A DNA stretch of 64,000 bases from Roseovarius litorisediminis. Lineage in GTDB: Bacteria > Pseudomonadota > Alphaproteobacteria > Rhodobacterales > Rhodobacteraceae. The DNA is taken from positions 434,001-498,000 of the forward strand of contig NZ_FWFL01000001.1 of assembly GCF_900172295.1 (NCBI RefSeq), written 5' to 3'. The translations under genes were made by a program, and so were the position numbers. This document shows positions 10,888 to 21,170 of this stretch, in pieces; position 1 is the first letter of the stretch; each line of letters begins with the position of its first letter. The notes under the pieces are model-generated. The model saw only the letters and a list, made by a program, of their open reading frames with translations. It was not told the origin of the DNA and searched no databases.

Positions 10888-12435
10888 ATGGCGGCCTACT
10901 CCGTAGAGATGAATTCGGTATTCGATCAAGGCCCGTCGGCCCCTTGCCCCACCCCCTTCAATCTGGCCGCGCATGTGCTGGCCAGGGGCGATGGAACACC
11001 TGGCAAGGTAGCCCTTTCAGTTCTGGACGTCGAGGGTGTCGAGGAATGGAACTTCGGGCAGTTGAGAGTTGCGGTTCTGGGCACGGGCACCGGACTTTTG
11101 CGGTCGGGCCTGAAACCCGGCAACCGCATTCTTATGCGTCTCGGCAACACCGTTGAATTTCCTATCGCCTATCTCGGCGCTATCGCCGTCGGGCTGGTGC
11201 CTGTTCCCACCTCGTCTCAGCTGACAAGCCCCGAGGTCGCAGGCATCCTGAAAATGACCGATCCCCGTGCCATTCTGTTAGGCCCCGGCATTGCCTGCCC
11301 GGAAACGGATTTACCGATCATCGACCAACCCACGTTAGAGGCAATGCGCGACCTGCCACCGGCGGCGTTTGACATGGGCGATCCTGACCGTCTGGCCTAT
11401 ATCATCTACACCTCTGGCACCTCGGGTAAACCCCGCGCTGTGGCTCATGCGCATCGGGCCATCTGGGCACGGCAGATGATGTTTGACGGCTGGTACGGAC
11501 TGCAGCCCGATGACCGTCTGTTGCACGCCGGCGCGTTCAACTGGACCTACACGCTTGGAACAGGCCTGATGGATCCCTGGACTGCGGGGGCAACGGCCCT
11601 GATTCCAGGCGCCGGGATCGCACCGGAATACCTACCAATCTTGCTGAAACAACATCAAGCAACAATTTTTGCTGCCGCACCAGGGGTTTACAGGAAGTTC
11701 CTAACGCCTGAACATCCCCTTGATCTGCCGCACCTCCGCCATGGATTGTCTGCGGGTGAAAAACTATCAGACACGATCCGGCAACAATGGCAACGCGCCA
11801 CCGGCACCAGCATCTACGAAGCATATGGCATGTCCGAATGCTCGACCTTCATATCCGGCAGTCCCGATCATCCGGCAACGCCGCCGTCACTGGGGCGCCC
11901 GCAAAAGGGCCGCCGTGTCGCCATTCTTGGGCCCGACGGCCCCGTGCCATTGGGCGAGGAAGGCACTATTTCCGTTCACCGCAGCGATCCCGGTTTGATG
12001 CTGGGATACCTGAACGCGCCCGAAGCCACCGCCGGGAAAATGCAGGGCGACTGGTTTCTGACCGGCGATCAGGGTGCGATGGATTCGGACTTCCAGGTCG
12101 CATATCTGGGCCGCGCCGATGATATGATGAACGCTGGCGGCTACCGTGTTTCCCCGCTTGAGGTCGAAGCCGCCCTCAATCTCCATCCCGGCATCACGCA
12201 ATGTGCGGTAACAGATATTGAGGTGAAACAGGATGCACGCCTGATCATGGCCTTCTATACAGGCCCCAGTGCCCTGCCACCCGGAGAGCTGGAAAGCTTT
12301 GCCGCCACGCGGCTGGCCGCCTACAAACGCCCCCGCGGCTTTTTTCACGTCACGGCCCTGCCCACAGGCGCCAATGGTAAAATCCTGCGCCGCGCGCTGC
12401 GGCCGATCTATGAGGCCCTACATGGTCAAGCTTGA
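10888..12435 (+). CDS. Acyl-CoA synthetase / adenylate-forming enzyme
   Basis: Activates a carboxylic acid as acyl-AMP and then acyl-CoA. The 515-residue protein has the AMP-binding P-loop YTSGTSGKPRAVAHAHRAI, YEAYGMSE, WFLTGDQGAMD and, near the C-terminus, RADDMMNAGGYRVSP and the late catalytic lysine in GANGKILRR. It resembles benzoate/fatty-acid ligases, but the substrate is unknown. The start is uncertain; ATG at 10909 (MNSVFDQGP) would leave a more credible promoter space from the divergent XRE-cupin gene. Its end overlaps the FrnE-like gene by 14 bp. Confidence 0.9.
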   Translation: MAAYSVEMNSVFDQGPSAPCPTPFNLAAHVLARGDGTPGKVALSVLDVEGVEEWNFGQLRVAVLGTGTGLLRSGLKPGNRILMRLGNTVEFPIAYLGAIAVGLVPVPTSSQLTSPEVAGILKMTDPRAILLGPGIACPETDLPIIDQPTLEAMRDLPPAAFDMGDPDRLAYIIYTSGTSGKPRAVAHAHRAIWARQMMFDGWYGLQPDDRLLHAGAFNWTYTLGTGLMDPWTAGATALIPGAGIAPEYLPILLKQHQATIFAAAPGVYRKFLTPEHPLDLPHLRHGLSAGEKLSDTIRQQWQRATGTSIYEAYGMSECSTFISGSPDHPATPPSLGRPQKGRRVAILGPDGPVPLGEEGTISVHRSDPGLMLGYLNAPEATAGKMQGDWFLTGDQGAMDSDFQVAYLGRADDMMNAGGYRVSPLEVEAALNLHPGITQCAVTDIEVKQDARLIMAFYTGPSALPPGELESFAATRLAAYKRPRGFFHVTALPTGANGKILRRALRPIYEALHGQA

Positions 12436-13054
12436 CATCATTTCCGATCCGATATGTCCCTGGTGTTATATCGGTAAAACCCTTCTGGATCAGGCTCTGG
12501 CGCAGCGCCCGGATCATCCGTTTGTCATCGAATGGCATCCGTTTCAACTCAACCCTGACATGCCCGCCGAAGGCATGGACCGGCGGGATTATCTGGAACA
12601 CAAATTTGGCGGCAAAGAGGGCGCTGTTGCCGCCTACGCGCCCGTTCTGGAACGTGCCGAGGCCGCAGGTTTGAACATCGACTTTGGCGCCATCAAACGC
12701 ACGCCGAATACACTGGATGCCCACCGCCTGATTCACTGGGCCGGGATCGAGGAACTTCAGGATAGCATGGCGATGGCCCTGTTCGCCGCTTATTTCGACG
12801 AGGGTCGAGATATCGGCGATCATGAAGTGCTGGCCGACATAGCCGATGGCCTGAGCATGGACGGCGCCATGGTCCAGAGACTGTTGGGAACCACGGCAGA
12901 CCGTGAAGACATCCGTACCCGCGATGCGCAATTCCGTCAGATGGGTGTTACCGGGGTGCCGACCTTTATCGTCGACGGCAAGCATGCCGTTCCCGGATGC
13001 CAACCCGCCGAAACCTGGCTCAAGGTGATAGATGAAATCACCAAACAGGATTAA
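12422..13054 (+). CDS. DsbA-family oxidoreductase, FrnE-like
   Basis: A 210-residue thioredoxin-fold protein of the DsbA/FrnE (2-hydroxychromene-2-carboxylate isomerase-like) family. The redox motif is Cys12-Pro-Trp-Cys15 (DPICPWCYIG), and the cis-proline loop is GVTGVPTFIVDGKHAVPG. It lacks a signal peptide, so it acts in the cytoplasm, unlike DsbA proper. Overlap with the upstream acyl-CoA synthetase suggests coupling, perhaps in a shared catabolic step (inference). Confidence 0.88.
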   Translation: MVKLDIISDPICPWCYIGKTLLDQALAQRPDHPFVIEWHPFQLNPDMPAEGMDRRDYLEHKFGGKEGAVAAYAPVLERAEAAGLNIDFGAIKRTPNTLDAHRLIHWAGIEELQDSMAMALFAAYFDEGRDIGDHEVLADIADGLSMDGAMVQRLLGTTADREDIRTRDAQFRQMGVTGVPTFIVDGKHAVPGCQPAETWLKVIDEITKQD

Positions 13055-13133: not shown

Positions 13134-13499
13134 ATGCGTAGTTTGCAAGCATTGGCGCTTTTGTCCACGCTGGCCCTGATCATTCTGGGCGGCACGGTGT
13201 TTTTCCATCTGGTTGAAGGCTGGAACTGGATCGACAGCTATTTTTTCACCGTCGTGACCCTGTCAACCGTCGGGTATGGCAGCCTGGTGCCCGCAACCAC
13301 ATTGGGCAAGATTGGGACAACGATCTTTATCTTCGTGGGCCTGGGCGTTTTCGCCGTTGCCATTCAGCAGTTCGGCTCGTTCACTGTGAAGCGGCGTGAA
13401 AAGCACACCGAATGGCTGGTGGCGCGCCTTGGCCACCATAATGTTCCGGATTCTGAAGAACCCAAACCAGCCAACGAACCTGAAAGCCCCCCCGAATGA
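13134..13499 (+). CDS. Small two-transmembrane potassium channel
   Basis: A 121-residue channel subunit. Transmembrane helix 1 is about residues 5-26, then comes the pore helix with the K+ selectivity filter TVGYG (45-49), then helix 2 about 57-76 and a hydrophilic tail rich in Pro and Glu. Four copies would form a pore. No RCK or voltage-sensor domain is present, so gating is not evident. An AAGGAG site lies 8 bp before the ATG. The stop overlaps the next start (ATGA), coupling it to the exporter. Confidence 0.85.
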   Translation: MRSLQALALLSTLALIILGGTVFFHLVEGWNWIDSYFFTVVTLSTVGYGSLVPATTLGKIGTTIFIFVGLGVFAVAIQQFGSFTVKRREKHTEWLVARLGHHNVPDSEEPKPANEPESPPE

Positions 13500-14707
13500 C
13501 CGGCCAACCCGGCATGGGCCGGGTCGAGTTTGTGGCCCTGATGGCCATGCTGGTGGCCACAGTGGCCTTTTCCATCGACGCCATGCTGCCTGCCCTGCCC
13601 CAAATCGGCGCCGAGCTGACACCTGCAAATCCAAATCACGCGCAACTGATTGTCACGTCGTTCATCCTCGGGCTGGGCATCGGCACGTTCTTTACCGGCC
13701 CTTTGTCGGACACATTCGGGCGCAAACCTGTCATCCTGACCGGCGCCTGCGTCTATATTGCCGGGGCGGCTCTGGGGTTTGCTGCACCCTCGCTTGAACT
13801 GATCATCGCGGCGCGCATCCTTCAGGGGCTTGGTGCGGCTGCGGCCCGGATCGTGGCACTGGCCATCATCCGAGACCTTTTTGCGGGTCGCGAAATGGCC
13901 AGGCTTATGTCATTTGTCATGATGGTTTTTACGCTGGTACCCGCCATTGCGCCCCTGGCAGGCAGCGCGGTCATCGCGGTCAGCGGCTGGCGCGGTATCT
14001 TTGCGGCCTTTGTGGCCTTCGCGTTGCTGACAAACCTCTGGCTGGCCCTGCGCCTTACCGAACCCCTGCCACCGACGCGCCGCCGCCCCTTCAACCGAAG
14101 CGCTCTTTTCATTGCTTTGCGCGAGGTCCTGTCGCACCACACCGTGCGCCTGTCGATAGCGGTGCAAACCCTGTGCCTGACCACGTTATTCGCCTCGATC
14201 AGCTCGATCCAGCAGATCATCGGCGGCACCTATGGCCGTGCTGAAACCTTTCCCCTCTGGTTCGGACTGATCGCCCTGATTTCCGGCAGTGGCAGCTTCA
14301 TCAACGCCTCACTGGTGATTCACCTTGGCATGCGTCGTCTGGTCAGCTTTGCCTTGTCAGCGCAGATCGTGATCACGGCGCTGGTGCTTGCACTTTTCCT
14401 GACAGACCTTCCGTCCGGACTGCAATTCCAGGTCTATATTGCCTGGCAGACAACAATCTTTTTTCAGGCCGCCCTGACCCTTGGAAATCTCAACGCCCTT
14501 GCCATGGAACCGCTGGGCCATATCGCAGGCATGGCCGCCAGCGTGATCGGATCGCTGGCCACCGTCGGCTCGGTCATTCTGACCGTTCCCATCGGGCTGG
14601 CCTTTGACGGAACACCTATGCCGTTATTTCTTGGCGTGCTTATTTGTGTGGCAACTGGCTTTGGTCTGATGAAAGGTCTGGCGCGGCGCCAAAGTTACGA
14701 GCCTTAA
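13496..14707 (+). CDS. Bcr/CflA-family MFS drug exporter
   Basis: A 403-residue inner-membrane transporter with about 12 predicted helices. GPLSDTFGRKPVIL between helices 2 and 3 is the MFS A-motif, and ARILQGLGAAAARIVALAIIRDLF is typical of Bcr/CflA drug:H+ antiporters. The substrate is unknown. It overlaps the K+ channel gene by 4 bp; co-expression of a channel with a proton-driven exporter is plausible but unexplained. Confidence 0.88.
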   Translation: MTGQPGMGRVEFVALMAMLVATVAFSIDAMLPALPQIGAELTPANPNHAQLIVTSFILGLGIGTFFTGPLSDTFGRKPVILTGACVYIAGAALGFAAPSLELIIAARILQGLGAAAARIVALAIIRDLFAGREMARLMSFVMMVFTLVPAIAPLAGSAVIAVSGWRGIFAAFVAFALLTNLWLALRLTEPLPPTRRRPFNRSALFIALREVLSHHTVRLSIAVQTLCLTTLFASISSIQQIIGGTYGRAETFPLWFGLIALISGSGSFINASLVIHLGMRRLVSFALSAQIVITALVLALFLTDLPSGLQFQVYIAWQTTIFFQAALTLGNLNALAMEPLGHIAGMAASVIGSLATVGSVILTVPIGLAFDGTPMPLFLGVLICVATGFGLMKGLARRQSYEP

Positions 14708-14812
14708 GGTTAAATTAAATTATGTATACTGTCGCATACCGTCTTTCCTATTGCGTGTTTTTAGTCTATGACGCCGCCAACATCACTTCATCCTAATCGA
14801 GAGAGATCACCG

Positions 14813-17026
14813 ATGGTTGATACCAATAGCCCCGACATCATCTACACAAAAGTTGACGAAGCCCCCGAACTCGCCAGCGCGTCCCTCCTGCCGATCATCC
14901 AGCGGTTCGCCGCCTCCGCCGACATTACGGTCGGCACCAAGGATATTTCTCTGGCAGGTCGTATTCTTGCAACCTTCCCCGAAAATCTGACCGAAGATCA
15001 ACGTATCTCAGACGATCTTGCCGAACTGGGTAATCTGGTAAAAACCCCGGGTGCAAACGTGATCAAGCTCCCCAATATCTCGGCGTCGGTCCCCCAGCTT
15101 GTCGCCGCCATTGAGGAACTTCAATCTCAGGGCTATGCCCTGCCCGACTATCCCGAAGACCCGGCAACCGACGCGGAAAAAACAATCCGTGCGCGCTATG
15201 ACTCCATCAAGGGTTCGGCTGTGAACCCGGTTCTGCGCGAAGGTAACTCGGATCGCCGGTCTGCCAGGGCGGTCAAAAATTACGCACAAAAGAACCCTCA
15301 TTCGATGGGCAAATGGGAATCAACCTCCAAGACCAAGGTTTCATCCATGTCGGACGGCGACTTTTACGCCAACGAGGTTTCAGCAACCATCACCGACGCC
15401 CAGGCGGGTAACGCGAAAATAGAATTTGTCGCCAAGGATGGCTCCATCACCGTTCTGAAGGACGGCTGGGCGCTTGAACCCGGCACCATTGCCGATGCAA
15501 CCTTTATGTCGGTCAAGGCGCTGGACGCCTTCCTGTCGGACGCCATTCAGGACACCAAATCTGATGGCACCATGTTTTCGCTGCACCTGAAGGCCACGAT
15601 GATGAAGGTCTCGGATCCGATCATCTTTGGTCACGCGGTCAAGGCCTGGCTTGCGCCGGTGTTTGAGAAATTCGGCGCCGAGCTTGACGCCGCTGGCGTG
15701 AACCCTAATTCCGGCATGGGCGACCTGCTGGAGCGGGTCCGGGACAACGCCGCAATCATGGCCGAGATCGACGCTTTGACCGCCGTGCGCCCCGCCATGT
15801 ACATGGTCGACAGCGACAAGGGCATAACCAACCTGCACGTGCCCTCGGATGTGATCATCGACGCCTCCATGCCTGCCGTGATCCGCGCAGGCGGCAAAGG
15901 CTGGGATGCGGCAGGCAAAAAGGGCGACACCAACTGTGTCATCCCCGATCGCTGCTATGCCACCGTCTATGACGAGGCCATCAATTTCTTCAAAGCTAAT
16001 GGCGCTCTGGATGTGGCGACCGCGGGCTCGGTCGCCAATGTGGGCCTGATGGCCCAGAAGGCCGAAGAATACGGCTCGCACCCCACCACCTTTGAAGCTG
16101 CTGCTGATGGCGTAATCCGTATTGTTCTGGCCAATGGCGAAACATTGCACAGCCATAACGTAAATGCAGGCGATATCTGGCGCGCCTGCACCGCCAAGAA
16201 AGCCCCGATTGAAAACTGGATCGAGCTGGCACTGGACCGCCAACGCCTGACCGGATCCGAATCGATCTTCTGGCTGGATGCCAACCGCGCCCACGACGCC
16301 GAGCTGATAAAATACGTCAAGCCCGCGCTGCAAGCGGCTGGTGCCGCAGACAAATTTCAGATCATGGCCCCCCGCGAGGCGACCGCACAGTCGCTGAAAA
16401 CCATCACCGCAGGCAAGGATAGCATCGCCATCACGGGCAACGTGCTACGCGACTATCTGACCGACCTCTTTCCGATCCTTGAACTGGGCACCTCGGCGAA
16501 AATGCTTTCGATCGTCAAGCTGATGAACGGCGGTGGCCTGTTCGAGACAGGTGCAGGTGGCTCGGCCCCCAAGCACGTGCAGCAGTTGATGGAAGAAAAC
16601 CACCTGCGGTGGGATTCAATGGGCGAATTCTGCGCACTGGGTGAATCGCTGAACTTCCTCGCCGAGGCCAGAAAAAACGCCCGCGCCCGCGTTCTGGGAC
16701 AGGCAGCCGAAGCCGCAACCCAAGGCATTCTGGACAACAACCGCTCTCCCAGCCGCAAGGTTGGCGAGCCGGACAACCGCGACAGCCACTATTGGTTCGC
16801 CCGCTACTGGGCCGAGGCCCTTGCCACGCAGACCGAAGATACAGGACTGGCACAGGAATTTGCACCCGTCGCCAAAGCCCTGGCCGAGAACGAGGCAAAG
16901 ATCACCAGCGAACTGGCGGCGGTACAGGGTCACCCTGCGGATACCGGTGGCTACTATAATGCCGACGCCGCCAAGCTTGCAGCCGTCATGCGGCCAAGTT
17001 CTACGCTGAACGACATCATCGGATAA
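14813..17026 (+). CDS. icd: Isocitrate dehydrogenase (NADP+), monomeric type
   Basis: Oxidatively decarboxylates isocitrate to 2-oxoglutarate with NADP+. The ~737-residue single chain matches the monomeric IDH family along its length ([82 protein letters not shown] in the form [16 protein letters not shown]). I chose the ATG at 14813, preceded by GAGAGA; an upstream in-frame ATG at 14768 would add 15 atypical residues. A second, unrelated IDH follows 107 bp downstream. Confidence 0.95.
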
Positions 17027-17045
17027 CACTCGCATGAAACCCGCG

Positions 17046-17083
17046 CAGCCGGCTATCCCTACACCACCGGGATGGGCCGGCTG
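17046..17083 (+). promoter_or_regulatory. Strong hairpin between the two isocitrate dehydrogenase genes
   Basis: CAGCCGGC (17046-17053) pairs perfectly with GCCGGCTG (17076-17083). An inner helix, ATCCC (17055-17059) with GGGAT (17069-17073), continues the stem. No T-run follows, so it is a poor terminator. It could stabilise or process the mRNA, letting the two genes be expressed at different levels. Confidence 0.5.
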
Positions 17084-17133
17084 ACACTTTGCAATCAGCA
17101 CGGGCTGGCGGCGCCCAAAGGAGACTGTGATAA

Positions 17134-18348
17134 ATGACCAGGATCAAGGTAGACAACCCAATCGTTGAAATGGACGGCGATGAAATGACCCGGATCATCT
17201 GGGATTTCATCAAGAAAAAACTGATCCTGCCCTATCTGGACATTAACCTGCTCTATTACGATCTGGGCATTGAGGAACGTGACCGCACCAACGACCAGAT
17301 CACCATCGACGCAGCCGAAAAAACCAAAGAAGTCGGTGTTGCCGTCAAATGCGCCACCATCACCCCGGATGAGGCCCGTGTCGAAGAATTCAACCTGAAA
17401 CAGATGTGGCGCAGCCCCAACGGCACCATCCGCAACATTCTGGGCGGCGTGATCTTTCGCCAGCCGATCATCTGCCAGAACGTCCCGCGCCTTGTGCCCG
17501 GATGGACCAAACCTATTGTTATCGGGCGCCACGCATATGGCGATCAGTACCGCGCCACCGATTTTAAATTCCCCGGCGCCGGTAAGCTGACACTAAAATT
17601 CGTCGGTGAAGACGGCGAAGTCATCGAGCGCGAAGTGTTTGAGGCTCCCGACAGCGGCGTCGTCATGGCCATGTACAATCTCGACAAGTCGATTATCGAC
17701 TTTGCCCGCGCCTCAATGAACTATGGTCTGAACATGGGGTGGCCGGTCTATCTGTCGACCAAGAACACCATCCTGAAACAATATGATGGCCGTTTCCTTG
17801 AGCTGTTTCAGGAAATCTATGAGGCAGAATTTGAAGACAAATTCAAAGCTGCCGGCATCACCTATGAACACCGCCTGATCGACGATATGGTCGCCTGTGC
17901 GATGAAATGGAACGGTGGCTATGTCTGGGCCTGCAAAAACTACGATGGCGACGTTCAGTCTGACACCGTGGCGCAGGGTTTTGGCTCGCTTGGTCTGATG
18001 ACTTCTGTCCTGATGACGCCCGATGGCAAAACCGTCGAGGCCGAAGCGGCCCACGGTACCGTCACCCGCCACTATCGCCAGCACCAGAAGGGCGAGGCAA
18101 CCTCGACCAACTCGATCGCGTCGATCTATGCCTGGACAGGCGGGCTCAAGCACCGGGCCAAACTGGATGGCAACGACGCGCTGATGAACTTTGCCACCAC
18201 ATTGGAAAAAGTCATCGTTGATACGGTTGAGTCCGGGTTTATGACCAAAGACCTGGCCCTGCTGGTCGGCCCCGACCAAAGATGGCTGACAACGATGGGT
18301 TTCCTCGAGAAGATTGATGAAAACCTGAACAAGGCGCTGGCCGGATAA
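17134..18348 (+). CDS. icd: Isocitrate dehydrogenase (NADP+), dimeric eukaryote-like type
   Basis: A 404-residue enzyme of the homodimeric class that also contains mitochondrial IDH2. It shows [62 protein letters not shown] and the NADP-binding [12 protein letters not shown]. It catalyses the same reaction as the gene upstream but is non-homologous to it over the chain. The pairing may separate bulk TCA flux from NADPH supply (inference). A clear terminator follows. Confidence 0.95.
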
Positions 18349-18388: not shown

Positions 18389-18413
18389 CGGGGGCCCATA
18401 GTGGCCCCCGTTT
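18389..18413 (+). terminator. Intrinsic terminator after the second icd gene
   Basis: CGGGGGCC (18389-18396) pairs with GGCCCCCG (18403-18410) across a 6-base loop and is followed by TTT. It lies 40 bp after the stop. It also sits before the end of the convergent PNPOx-like gene and may act on both strands. Confidence 0.75.
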
Positions 18414-18452: not shown

Positions 18453-19082
18453 TCAGGCCTTCGCAGCCAATTCTGCCTTCAACGCGGCATACTCGGCCTG
18501 CAACTGGCCCAACTGCTGCTGAAGCGGGGCCAGTATGGGTTGCAGTTCTTCCATCGTCAGGCGCACCGGCAGGTGTTGCGGGCAGTTCCAGTCAAATCCC
18601 TCAACCCTGATGACCACCGCGCGCTCGGGTCGGCCGCGATAGCTGTCATCATGCAGCCTTTCGATCAGCGCCGGATCATCGGCGATATCCACCAGACGGG
18701 CCCGGCCCAATATCTTGATACGCGCCGAGTTGGGATAATCCACAAGGATCATGGCAATCCGGTCATCATGGTCCAGATTACCCGCGCTGATATACTGTCG
18801 GTTGCCACGGAAATCCGCATAGGCAATCGTCTGGTCGTCCAATACTTTCAAAAACCCGCGCGGCCCGCCGCGAAACTGGACATAGGGCCAGCCGGTCTCG
18901 GATACTGTCGCCTGATAAAATCCATCACGCAGGCCGATGAACCGAACCTCCTGCGGGCCAAGCCGGTTGTCCGGGCCGAAATCCGCACTCAGGAATTTTT
19001 CATAAGCCTTTGCCGAGCCCTGTTTTTCCTGAATTGCGCGCACACGGGGGGTAAAAGCCAGTTCTGCAAATGCCTTGGCCAT
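18453..19082 (-). CDS. Pyridoxamine 5'-phosphate oxidase-family flavoprotein
   Basis: A 209-residue protein with a split-barrel FMN-binding fold (FYQATVSETGWPYVQFRGG, RGNRQYISAGNL, RIAMILVDYPNSARIKILGRA). A C-terminal coiled coil of about 40 residues (LQQQLGQLQAEYAALKAEL) is additional to the barrel and suggests oligomerisation. The family includes general stress and F420/FMN reductases, so PdxH activity should not be assumed. It starts 2 bp after the stop of the DUF1348 gene and is probably co-transcribed with it. Confidence 0.82.
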   Translation of the reverse strand: MAKAFAELAFTPRVRAIQEKQGSAKAYEKFLSADFGPDNRLGPQEVRFIGLRDGFYQATVSETGWPYVQFRGGPRGFLKVLDDQTIAYADFRGNRQYISAGNLDHDDRIAMILVDYPNSARIKILGRARLVDIADDPALIERLHDDSYRGRPERAVVIRVEGFDWNCPQHLPVRLTMEELQPILAPLQQQLGQLQAEYAALKAELAAKA

Positions 19083-19084
19083 CG

Positions 19085-19549
19085 TTATAACCCCAGCACG
19101 CTGAGCCCGGGGTGATCATCCGGACGCCGCCCCTGCGGCCAATGAAACTTGCGGTCTGCGGCGTCTATGGCCAGATCGTTGATGCTGGCATAGCGTTTTG
19201 CCATCAAGCCGTCGGCATCAAACTCCCAGTTCTCGTTTCCATAGGACCGGTACCACTGACCTGCTTCATCGTGCCATTCATAGGCAAAACGTACCGCAAT
19301 TCGGTTACCAGCCGTGGCCCACAGTTCCTTGATCAGACGATAGTCGTGCTCACGCTGCCATTTCCGGGTCAGAAACGCTTCAATTTCGGCGCGCCCTTTA
19401 GGAAATTCTGCTCGGTTGCGCCATTCACTGTCGACCGTATAGGCCAGTGCCACCTTGGCGGGATCGCGGCTGTTCCAGCCGTCTTCGGCAGCGCGCACTT
19501 TTTGCGCGGCAGTCTCGGGGGTAAAAGGGGGCAATGGTGGACGTGACAT
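19085..19549 (-). CDS. DUF1348 / NTF2-like fold protein
   Basis: A 154-residue protein of the DUF1348 family, a SnoaL/NTF2-like fold ([64 protein letters not shown]). Members have no firmly established reaction. The start at 19549 is favoured by AGGAG six bases upstream; an ATG two codons earlier abuts that site. The short spacing to the PNPOx-like gene suggests a two-gene operon, perhaps for redox stress (inference). Confidence 0.82.
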
Positions 19550-19659
19550 GGGCATCTCCTTGGTTAACTGATCTGTACATGGTTGTTGCGTACCGATCTG
19601 TCAACCCTGCAGACGCACCCTCCCGAAACCGTGATCCCGCCGATTCCTGGCTGCCGCCA

Positions 19660-20931
19660 TCAAAGGTTTTCGAATTGCGCTTCTTCCCGCGCAGACCATC
19701 GCACGGTCAGGTCGAACCCGCCTTCGCCCTGCACCTCGTTCTCGACCACACCCTTTTCAAACAGCCACGCCCGTTTGCGGCCCTCACCAAAGTCAAGATG
19801 TACCTGGCTGACGTGTGTGGCGCTTGCCAGAGCCTCTGTCACGGCACCGATAAAATCGTCAATCCCCTGCCCAGTAACGGCGGAGATTGCCTTGACGTCC
19901 TCGCGTCGCGCCGCCTGGGTCAGGGCGGCGTTGCGTGCATCGTCGTCCAGCAGGTCGATCTTGTTCCAGACCTCGATAAGCGGCGTGTCATCCTTGACCC
20001 CAAGGCTTTCCAGGATGTTCCTTACATCCGCCGCCTGTGACTCGCTTTCGGAATGCGAAATGTCGCGCACATGCACGATAAGGTCCGCCGCCAGCACCTC
20101 TTCCAGTGTGGCGCGAAACGCGGCAACCAGTTCGGTGGGAAGATCACTGATGAAACCCACGGTATCCGACAGGATCACTTCTGGTCCGTCGGGCAATTCA
20201 ACCCGTCGCATTGTCGGATCAAGCGTGGCAAACAGCATGTCCTTGACCAACACCTCTGCGCCGGTCAGACGGTTGAACAGCGTTGATTTGCCCGCGTTGG
20301 TATAGCCCACCAGCGCCACGATCGGAAACGGCACCTTGGCCCGGCTGGCCCGATGCAAGGTGCGCGTCTTGACCACCTTTTCCAGCTGTCGGCGCAGACG
20401 AACCAGCTGTTCGTCAATCGCCCGCCTGTCGGCCTCGATCTGTGTTTCGCCAGGACCGCCGACAAAACCCAGCCCGCCGCGCTGCCGCTCCAGGTGTGTC
20501 CATGCCCGCACCAATCGTGTTCGCTGATAAGACAGGGCCGCCATTTCCACCTGCAGCACCCCTTCACGGGTGGCTGCACGATCACTGAAAATTTCTAAAA
20601 TCAGGCCGGTCCGGTCCAGCAGTTTGACACCCCAGGCCTTTTCCAGATTACGTTGCTGCACCGGCGACACCGGCCCGTCCACCAGCACAAGCTCCACCTC
20701 GTTTGCTTCGAACATCAGGCGCAGTTCTTCCAGCTTGCCTTTACCGAACAGCATGCCGGGATGTGGTTTTTTCAGGCGCACCACGCTCTGACCTGCGACC
20801 TCCAGATCGGGCAGCGCATGGGCAAGCGAAACCGCTTCCTCCAGTGCAAGACCGGGATCGCGAGAGCTGTTAGATGATTGGATATCAGGATGCAGCACCC
20901 AGGCGCGGGTGGCCTCCCGTTCTTGATCCAT
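19660..20931 (-). CDS. hflX: Ribosome-associated GTPase HflX
   Basis: A 423-residue GTPase that binds and splits 70S ribosomes under stress. The N-terminal HflX domain includes GKLEELRLMFEANEVELVLVDG and GPGETQIEADRR; the G domain has the P-loop GYTNAGKST, switch II DTVGFISDLP and NKIDLLDD. The ATG at 20931 overlaps the hfq stop (ATGA), so expression is coupled to hfq, as in many proteobacteria. Confidence 0.95.
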   Translation of the reverse strand: MDQEREATRAWVLHPDIQSSNSSRDPGLALEEAVSLAHALPDLEVAGQSVVRLKKPHPGMLFGKGKLEELRLMFEANEVELVLVDGPVSPVQQRNLEKAWGVKLLDRTGLILEIFSDRAATREGVLQVEMAALSYQRTRLVRAWTHLERQRGGLGFVGGPGETQIEADRRAIDEQLVRLRRQLEKVVKTRTLHRASRAKVPFPIVALVGYTNAGKSTLFNRLTGAEVLVKDMLFATLDPTMRRVELPDGPEVILSDTVGFISDLPTELVAAFRATLEEVLAADLIVHVRDISHSESESQAADVRNILESLGVKDDTPLIEVWNKIDLLDDDARNAALTQAARREDVKAISAVTGQGIDDFIGAVTEALASATHVSQVHLDFGEGRKRAWLFEKGVVENEVQGEGGFDLTVRWSAREEAQFENL

Positions 20932-21170
20932 CAAGTGTTGTCTTCACCTTCATAAAGGTTCACAGGCTGCGACGGCATTATGGTCGAAACCGCATGCTTG
21001 TACACCAGCTGTGACTGGCCATCCCGGCGCAGCAGGATGCAAAAATTGTCAAACCAGGTGATAACCCCCTGTAGTTTGACCCCGTTTATCAGGAACACTG
21101 TGACCGGAATCTTGGTCTTTCGTACCTGGTTCAGAAATGCGTCTTGAAGGGACTGACGGTCAGAAGCCAT
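20931..21170 (-). CDS. hfq: RNA chaperone Hfq
   Basis: A 79-residue Sm-like protein that forms a hexamer and pairs small RNAs with mRNAs. The Sm1 motif lies in [21 protein letters not shown], and the Sm2 motif YKHAVSTI carries Lys58-His59 of the proximal RNA site. The C-terminal tail is short, as usual in alphaproteobacteria. It precedes hflX and lies on the far side of trkH from trkA. Confidence 0.97.

Follow-up and report, generated by a model that had tools for sequence, protein, structure and literature searches.

Why would a bacterium keep two isocitrate dehydrogenases (IDHs) with the same coenzyme next to each other on its chromosome? The question is raised by a 64,000-nt stretch of Roseovarius litorisediminis DNA, here called the window. 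A preliminary description had placed an IDH of about 737 residues in it, followed after 107 bp by one of 404 residues. An ORF check of the window bore this out: both open frames were confirmed on the same strand with 107 bp between them. The frame of the first gene is already open from 14768; its ATG is at 14813 and the stop codon ends at 17026, which yields 737 amino acids. In the following the two products are called the monomeric and the dimeric IDH. The parts of the locus are:

12269..13054, + strand: DsbA-family protein, upstream landmark of the slot; the true start is probably within the frame
13134..13499, + strand: small ion-channel protein, upstream landmark
13496..14707, + strand: MFS transporter, Bcr/CflA-like but under the cut-off of that model; upstream landmark of the slot
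14708..14812, + strand: AT-rich stretch 5' of the monomeric IDH, likely promoter region (GC 0.41 vs 0.62 before the dimeric IDH)
14813..17026, + strand: type III (monomeric-type) NADP-isocitrate dehydrogenase, 737 aa (profile matches, conserved residues)
17046..17083, + strand: stem-loop of 14 pairs with one bulge and without a T-run, directly 3' of the stop codon of the monomeric IDH
17134..18348, + strand: type II (eukaryote-like) NADP-isocitrate dehydrogenase, 404 aa (profile matches, active-site residues)
18389..18410, + strand: terminator-like stem 3' of the dimeric IDH, listed on both strands; the unit probably ends here
19660..20934, - strand: GTPase HflX, downstream landmark

Between the dimeric IDH and hflX the minus strand carries genes for a PPOX-type flavoprotein and a DUF1348 protein (window 18453-19555). 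An anti-phage defence role for the PPOX gene was considered and rejected, as it had no match. The whole genome (4.0 Mb) contains a single PF03971 match and a single match to the dimeric IDH of the window; a search with PF00180 returned two further, unclassified matches.

Identity and fold of the two enzymes

The monomeric IDH matched TIGR00178 over its full length with 1078 bits (cut-off 950), and PF03971 covers residues 9-736. The dimeric IDH matched NF006156, also over its full length, with 760 bits (cut-off 335), and TIGR00127, the eukaryotic-type NADP-IDH, with 673 bits (cut-off 397). All 10 substrate, metal and coenzyme positions examined in the monomeric IDH are conserved; these are the isocitrate, metal and NADP positions of the Azotobacter enzyme. 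The dimeric IDH carries R100, R109, R132 and Y139, the active-site arginines and tyrosine of human IDH1. Both proteins belong to NADP-IDH families and have their key residues conserved. As first described, they would be two NADP-IDHs for one reaction.

The same description had called the enzymes unrelated and differently folded. At the level of sequence the former holds: no similarity between the two was detectable (BLASTP E 0.62). The closest solved structures by sequence are 1itw, the Azotobacter-type monomeric IDH, for the first enzyme and 3us8, a dimeric IDH from Sinorhizobium, for the second. The structure of the monomeric IDH was predicted from a 20-sequence alignment (pLDDT 82.5). The model aligned with 1itw_A over 727 residues (Z 50.1, rmsd 3.2), and monomeric IDHs scored at Z 48-50. 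Dimeric NADP-IDHs ranked below these, at Z ~17-19, with 350-379 residues aligned and 10-12% of them identical; for 3us8_B the values were Z 18.3 and rmsd 3.6 over 370 residues at 12% identity (Foldseek E 2.5e-8). With a shared core at Z ~18 "unrelated" fails for the folds, and the alignment with 3us8_B contradicts "different folds". According to this model the two enzymes are very remote relatives with a common core, and because of that core the term "non-homologous" does not strictly apply. As to the oligomeric state of type III IDHs, some relatives are homodimers according to passages in two reports (PMC10574006; PMC5979607).

Probable transcription of the pair

How might both genes be read? 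The 100 bp before the dimeric IDH have a mean GC content of 0.66 in 9 tandems vs 0.58 in 20 solo loci (p 0.008), and the lowest-GC 40-bp stretch before the gene differs in the same comparison (p 0.004, Mann-Whitney); three of the twelve same-strand pairs (L084, L226, L231) were excluded. "Dimonly" in the tree of dimeric IDHs and "solo" in the frameshift count below denote a dimeric IDH with no monomeric IDH adjacent; four such genomes (G211, G055, G001, G093) have one elsewhere. A strong stem-loop follows the stop codon of the monomeric IDH in the window and in most other tandems. Behind the stop codon at 122 other monomeric IDH loci, a GC-rich perfect stem was present in 82, and in 53 of these 82 at least four T were found in the next eight bases. 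The stem-loop at 17046-17083 is probably a former terminator, an attenuator or a processing element. The 107-nt gap as a whole did not fold significantly better than shuffled sequences (z -1.2), and the larger region searched for terminators has 6 such stems vs 4.8 expected in shuffles. No sigma-70-type promoter was found in the searched region, which says little for this bacterial group. Taken together, we infer one promoter before the monomeric IDH, partial read-through into the dimeric IDH and an end at the 18389-18410 stem. An RNA element before or between the genes was also considered; the one Rfam match was under the gathering score, lay within the monomeric IDH and was taken as chance.

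One slot with three states in Roseovarius

Sixty genomes of the genus were searched with both enzymes, and landmarks were located with MFS, DsbA and HflX queries. The monomeric IDH was present in 45 and the dimeric IDH in 25; both were present in 10 and neither in 0, and 50/60 genomes had only one of them. The place behind DsbA-(channel)-(MFS), here called the slot, held the monomeric IDH alone in 30/60 genomes. These are 28 cases behind MFS, G265 behind DsbA, and G249, which the landmark script left unplaced and which was counted in this group since its monomeric IDH adjoins HflX. In 9/60 genomes the slot held the tandem, with the monomeric IDH first in 9/9. One of these, G280, has a contig beginning just before the monomeric IDH, with the upstream landmark not visible, and was assigned to the slot by its tandem. 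The dimeric IDH alone was found in 15/60 (3 behind MFS, 12 behind DsbA), 60-948 bp past the landmark. A single genome (G285) has the monomeric IDH in the slot and the dimeric IDH elsewhere, and in five (G254, G262, G268, G277, G293) the monomeric IDH is not behind the landmarks. Among the 10 dual genomes are eight tandems with gaps of up to ~110 bp and a ninth, G303, with 1.05 kb between the genes. The same chromosomal slot is thus occupied by the dimeric IDH alone, by the tandem or by the monomeric IDH alone among congeners. A further locus labelled Roseovarius (L077) has the same gene order as the window. In G254 and G268 the gap between MFS and HflX measures ~0.7 and ~0.5 kb with no IDH between, and the monomeric IDH is elsewhere in the genome. 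Possibly this is an end state in which the gene of the slot was lost.

Origin of the monomeric IDH in the window

The monomeric IDH of the window is 71-75% identical to the 44 other monomeric IDHs of the genus sample, 84% to that of Shimia and 82-83% to those of several other genera. A tree grouping it with three Roseovarius-labelled monomeric IDHs was rejected (dlnL 293, p-AU 3e-5). It therefore comes from another lineage than its genus. The dimeric IDH of the window is 80-88% identical to full-length dimeric IDHs of the genus. The loci counted exclude G078 (two fragments), G265:C14 and G294:C73, as well as the second copy in G200 and the second fragment in G235; the two rows of the G280 gene were joined as coordinates.

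The pair in the Rhodobacteraceae

Profile searches for both enzymes were extended to one genome from each of 248 genera of the family. The monomeric IDH was found in 136/248 and the dimeric IDH over cut-off in 189/248. The tally was 50 genomes with the monomeric IDH only, 86 with both, 108 with the dimeric IDH only and 4 with neither (G095, G113, G155, G156), i.e. only one of the two in 158/248. The tally was made by eye on the search tables, and fragments of the dimeric IDH in G069, G118, G160, G220 and G233 were scored as present. The surroundings of the monomeric IDH were mapped at 135 places (134 flanks and the window). At 9/135 a dimeric IDH follows on the same strand within 300 bp, with one more at 1.3 kb; at 2/135 the genes are divergent within 250 bp, and another two pairs lie within 5 kb. 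The preliminary description had proposed a survey of adjacency in this family. In the present one 12/86 dual genomes have a close pair (<=1.3 kb) and 74/86 do not. The 12 are a lower bound because at least 17 mapped places have no more than 1.5 kb of sequence on one side. In 12/12 pairs within 1.3 kb the monomeric IDH is 5' of the dimeric IDH. The sole exception seen was L103, from a metagenome-derived genome with the label Caulobacterales, where the two are convergent ~420 bp apart, with the dimeric IDH 3' of the monomeric one.

A single conserved home of the monomeric IDH in the family was considered and rejected, as most of its loci have no common named neighbours. In the map of neighbour names a crude gene caller missed the monomeric IDH in 44 loci; locus counts were taken from homology-based maps.

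The dimeric IDH does have a usual place. Of 20 dimeric IDHs in mapped dim-only genomes, 18 are located at sufB-nifS-rrf2/hydrolase-IDH-(SMR, Lrp)-typA/DUF1330-alaS-recA, whole or in part. At this usual locus monomeric and dimeric IDH form a tandem in 6 genomes (G050, G144, G024, G084, G208, G157) and a divergent pair in 2 (G134, G116). In 5 genomes the monomeric IDH is there alone in the orientation of the dimeric gene (G142, G106, G230, G148, G102), and in 4 it is alone and inverted (G187, G139, G064, G235). In G139, G064 and G235 only the alaS side anchors the gene; the G235 gene is cut (profile positions 3-637, the rest on another contig), was scored as standing alone and is outside the tree of monomeric IDHs. 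No dimeric IDH was found elsewhere in these nine genomes (all best matches at E 9.5e-6 or weaker). What is seen at the slot in the genus is thus repeated in the wider family, at another locus.

The inverted genes group as would be expected if a divergent pair had lost its dimeric IDH: G134 and G116 have the two divergent pairs, and the monomeric IDH of G134 clusters with those of G187 and G139 (support 96), while the monomeric IDH of G116 clusters with that of G064 (support 94). A tree of up to 7 flanking genes from 35 loci of the usual locus was used for undirected counts of changes. The state "monomeric IDH alone" required 9 changes, of which well supported branches force 8; for the presence of the monomeric IDH the number was 10. 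G106, with a monomeric IDH, is sister of G141, with a dimeric one (support 100); the same holds for G148 and G137 (support 96). Shuffled labels yielded similar counts of changes, thus the states are scattered over the flanking tree and not clustered. The monomeric IDHs of neighbours on this tree are often not mutual nearest kin. At the 20 mapped dim-only loci no remnant covering at least 30% of a monomeric IDH was found.

A second genus, that of G106, was represented by 5 genomes, 2 with the tandem and 3 with the monomeric IDH alone; in 5/5 typA is 0.6-2.9 kb downstream. Among the mono-only genomes of the family G096, G181, G070 and G009 have the gene at the window-type locus, next to MFS, and in 37/50 it is at neither the window-type nor the usual locus. 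With 74/86 dual and 37/50 mono-only genomes lacking the arrangement, most dual or swapped genomes have not visibly passed through it. In R. litorisediminis the usual locus is split: recA-alaS-DUF1330 is at about 312 kb of contig C29, rrf2-hydrolase at about 555 kb, and the IDH pair, at 449 kb, between the two parts. Several relatives have an SMR (small multidrug) gene 3' of the IDH, at the one locus as at the other; it is not among the genes beside the pair in the window.

Selection and decay

Compared with their nearest kin both genes have pN/pS values of 0.13-0.17 (0.13 for the dimeric IDH); for the monomeric IDH against the distant L077 the value was 0.31. With the conserved active-site positions this agrees with the earlier statement that both look complete; neither gene appears broken. 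Judged from these ratios, both appear to have been under purifying selection over their history. The dimeric IDH of the window has the shortest end branch among the tandem dimeric IDHs (0.047). Because it shows no decay, stable coexistence is as possible as a transition. Frameshifts in the dimeric IDH occurred in 2/14 adjacent pairs (L084/G280, L258/G157) vs 0/31 solo genes (Fisher p 0.09). Split monomeric IDHs were 0/215, a number which includes six repeats of a twice-represented sequence, and the neighbours of the two frameshifted dimeric IDHs are whole. This hints that the dimeric IDH is the partner that decays; both cases are draft metagenome genomes, in which an assembly error is possible.

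Interpretation and alternatives

What, then, is the tandem? Probably both enzymes work and are functionally equivalent, and the pair lies between two states of a gene displacement that recurs in place. Most likely both enzymes would work and the dimeric IDH would be read from the promoter of the monomeric one, in a state between "dimeric only" and "monomeric only". A monomeric IDH with its own promoter and terminator would enter on the 5' side of the dimeric IDH in either orientation. In the tandem form the dimeric IDH would lose its own promoter region and would be transcribed by reduced read-through from the monomeric IDH past the remaining stem-loop. Later one of the two IDHs could be lost because either enzyme would suffice for the TCA cycle. 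From gene content, either alone would seem sufficient, with room for other kinds of IDH in individual genomes. As 15 congeners have the dimeric IDH only, the monomeric IDH may have been lost as well as the dimeric one. For as long as the two coexist, NADPH and 2-oxoglutarate could come from two sources with different kinetics, to the possible benefit of the cell. A bolder form of this reading is rather unlikely: that the place is a recurrent exchange site, to which monomeric IDHs of several lineages come repeatedly on the 5' side of the dimeric gene, whichever way round, with homologous recombination via the conserved flanking genes as the simplest route, and where the states coexist as selection fluctuates, e.g. 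with temperature or NADPH demand. If this were true, an essential step of the TCA cycle would be in continuing turnover.

The tandem could also be a dedicated operon of two isozymes, i.e. co-transcribed IDHs which cover different conditions because their affinity, temperature range or regulation is not the same; this has been suggested for other bacteria that have two NADP-IDHs. Both genes are intact and constrained and the tandem occurs in several species of the genus, as such an operon would have it; further, the two enzymes of P. aeruginosa differ in Km and heat stability, as part of one report states (PMC10574006). But the 50 of 60 congeners that manage with one enzyme and the stem-loop between the genes speak against it, and the genome has no TIGR01346 isocitrate lyase, which leaves no known kind of glyoxylate branch that would need regulation. 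For the same reason regulation of that branch was rejected as the reason for two IDHs; in the family 1/248 genomes had a TIGR01346 match over cut-off, and 82 more had weaker matches. All in all we hold the operon to be a real, if lesser, possibility. An ancestral tandem of the family, followed by differential loss only, would account for the monomeric IDH being 5' of the dimeric one at two loci and for much of the pattern in the genus. However, L258 and L265 are sisters by their flanking genes (support 99), yet have monomeric IDHs in different supported clades. There are two orientations of insertion, the monomeric IDH of the window cannot join the Roseovarius-labelled ones by the tree test given above, and the dim-only loci retain no remnant of 30% or more of a monomeric IDH (0/20). 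This makes purely differential loss improbable. Many of the compared genomes are drafts, which might suggest chance adjacency or an assembly artefact; as the tandem is also present in assemblies of few contigs (G260 with ~10, G307 with 7) and the pair is adjacent in 9/10 dual genomes of the genus, we give this practically no weight.

Relation to known systems

Paired IDHs are already known. Colwellia maris (Vibrio sp. ABE-1) reportedly encodes both kinds of NADP-IDH, dimeric and monomeric, in the linked genes icdI and icdII, and the dimeric partner is said to be of the E. coli-like kind. This gammaproteobacterium resembles the window in having a monomeric and a dimeric NADP-IDH in the same genome; a survey of its locus as an exchange slot was not found in the open-licence literature. 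Gene displacement in situ, as reportedly described by Omelchenko et al. 2003, is the replacement of orthologues by xenologues inside operons, and is similar to the IDH slot in that a gene is replaced at its own place. A report of the IDH swap itself was not found in the open-licence literature. The phosphoglycerate mutases are a further parallel: according to parts of one report, two functionally equivalent enzymes are spread patchily even within a genus and some genomes have both, as with the IDHs; unlike at the IDH slot, both enzymes at one locus are not reported in those parts (PMC2964296). Whether such dual genomes are an early displacement or a retained ancestral state is left there as an open question (PMC2964296).

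The pair is thus ordinary in its enzymes and unusually informative in its arrangement. How one enzyme takes over from an equivalent but very different one while an essential pathway keeps running is usually deduced from the patchy occurrence of the two. With the old, the double and the new state at one locus within one genus, the order, direction, change in expression and fitness cost of the middle state become measurable.

The monomeric IDH also has other neighbours. In 2/4 Pseudomonas-labelled loci, those of P. flexibilis (L136) and P. guariconensis (L140), it is beside an E. coli-type icd (78% and 76% identical), so its adjacency with a dimeric IDH exists for another subfamily, too. In these pairs the dimeric enzyme is type I and the genes are divergent, whereas the pair in the window is type II and in tandem. 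P. aeruginosa has isocitrate lyase and IDH kinase, as stated in part of one report (PMC10574006). A third kind of partner, going by its sequence, appears to be an NAD-IDH-like protein. It is ~120 bp 3' of the monomeric IDH in G214 (L179:10330-11349), a genome without a match to the dimeric IDH, and ~1 kb 5' of it in Aliiroseovarius halocynthiae (L094:4019-5041); the two score 447 and 456 bits against NF006529, under its cut-off of 510. Finally, G200 has two near-equal monomeric IDHs ~9 kb apart, C4:218892-221105 on the plus and 229975-232188 on the minus strand, without a match to the dimeric IDH.
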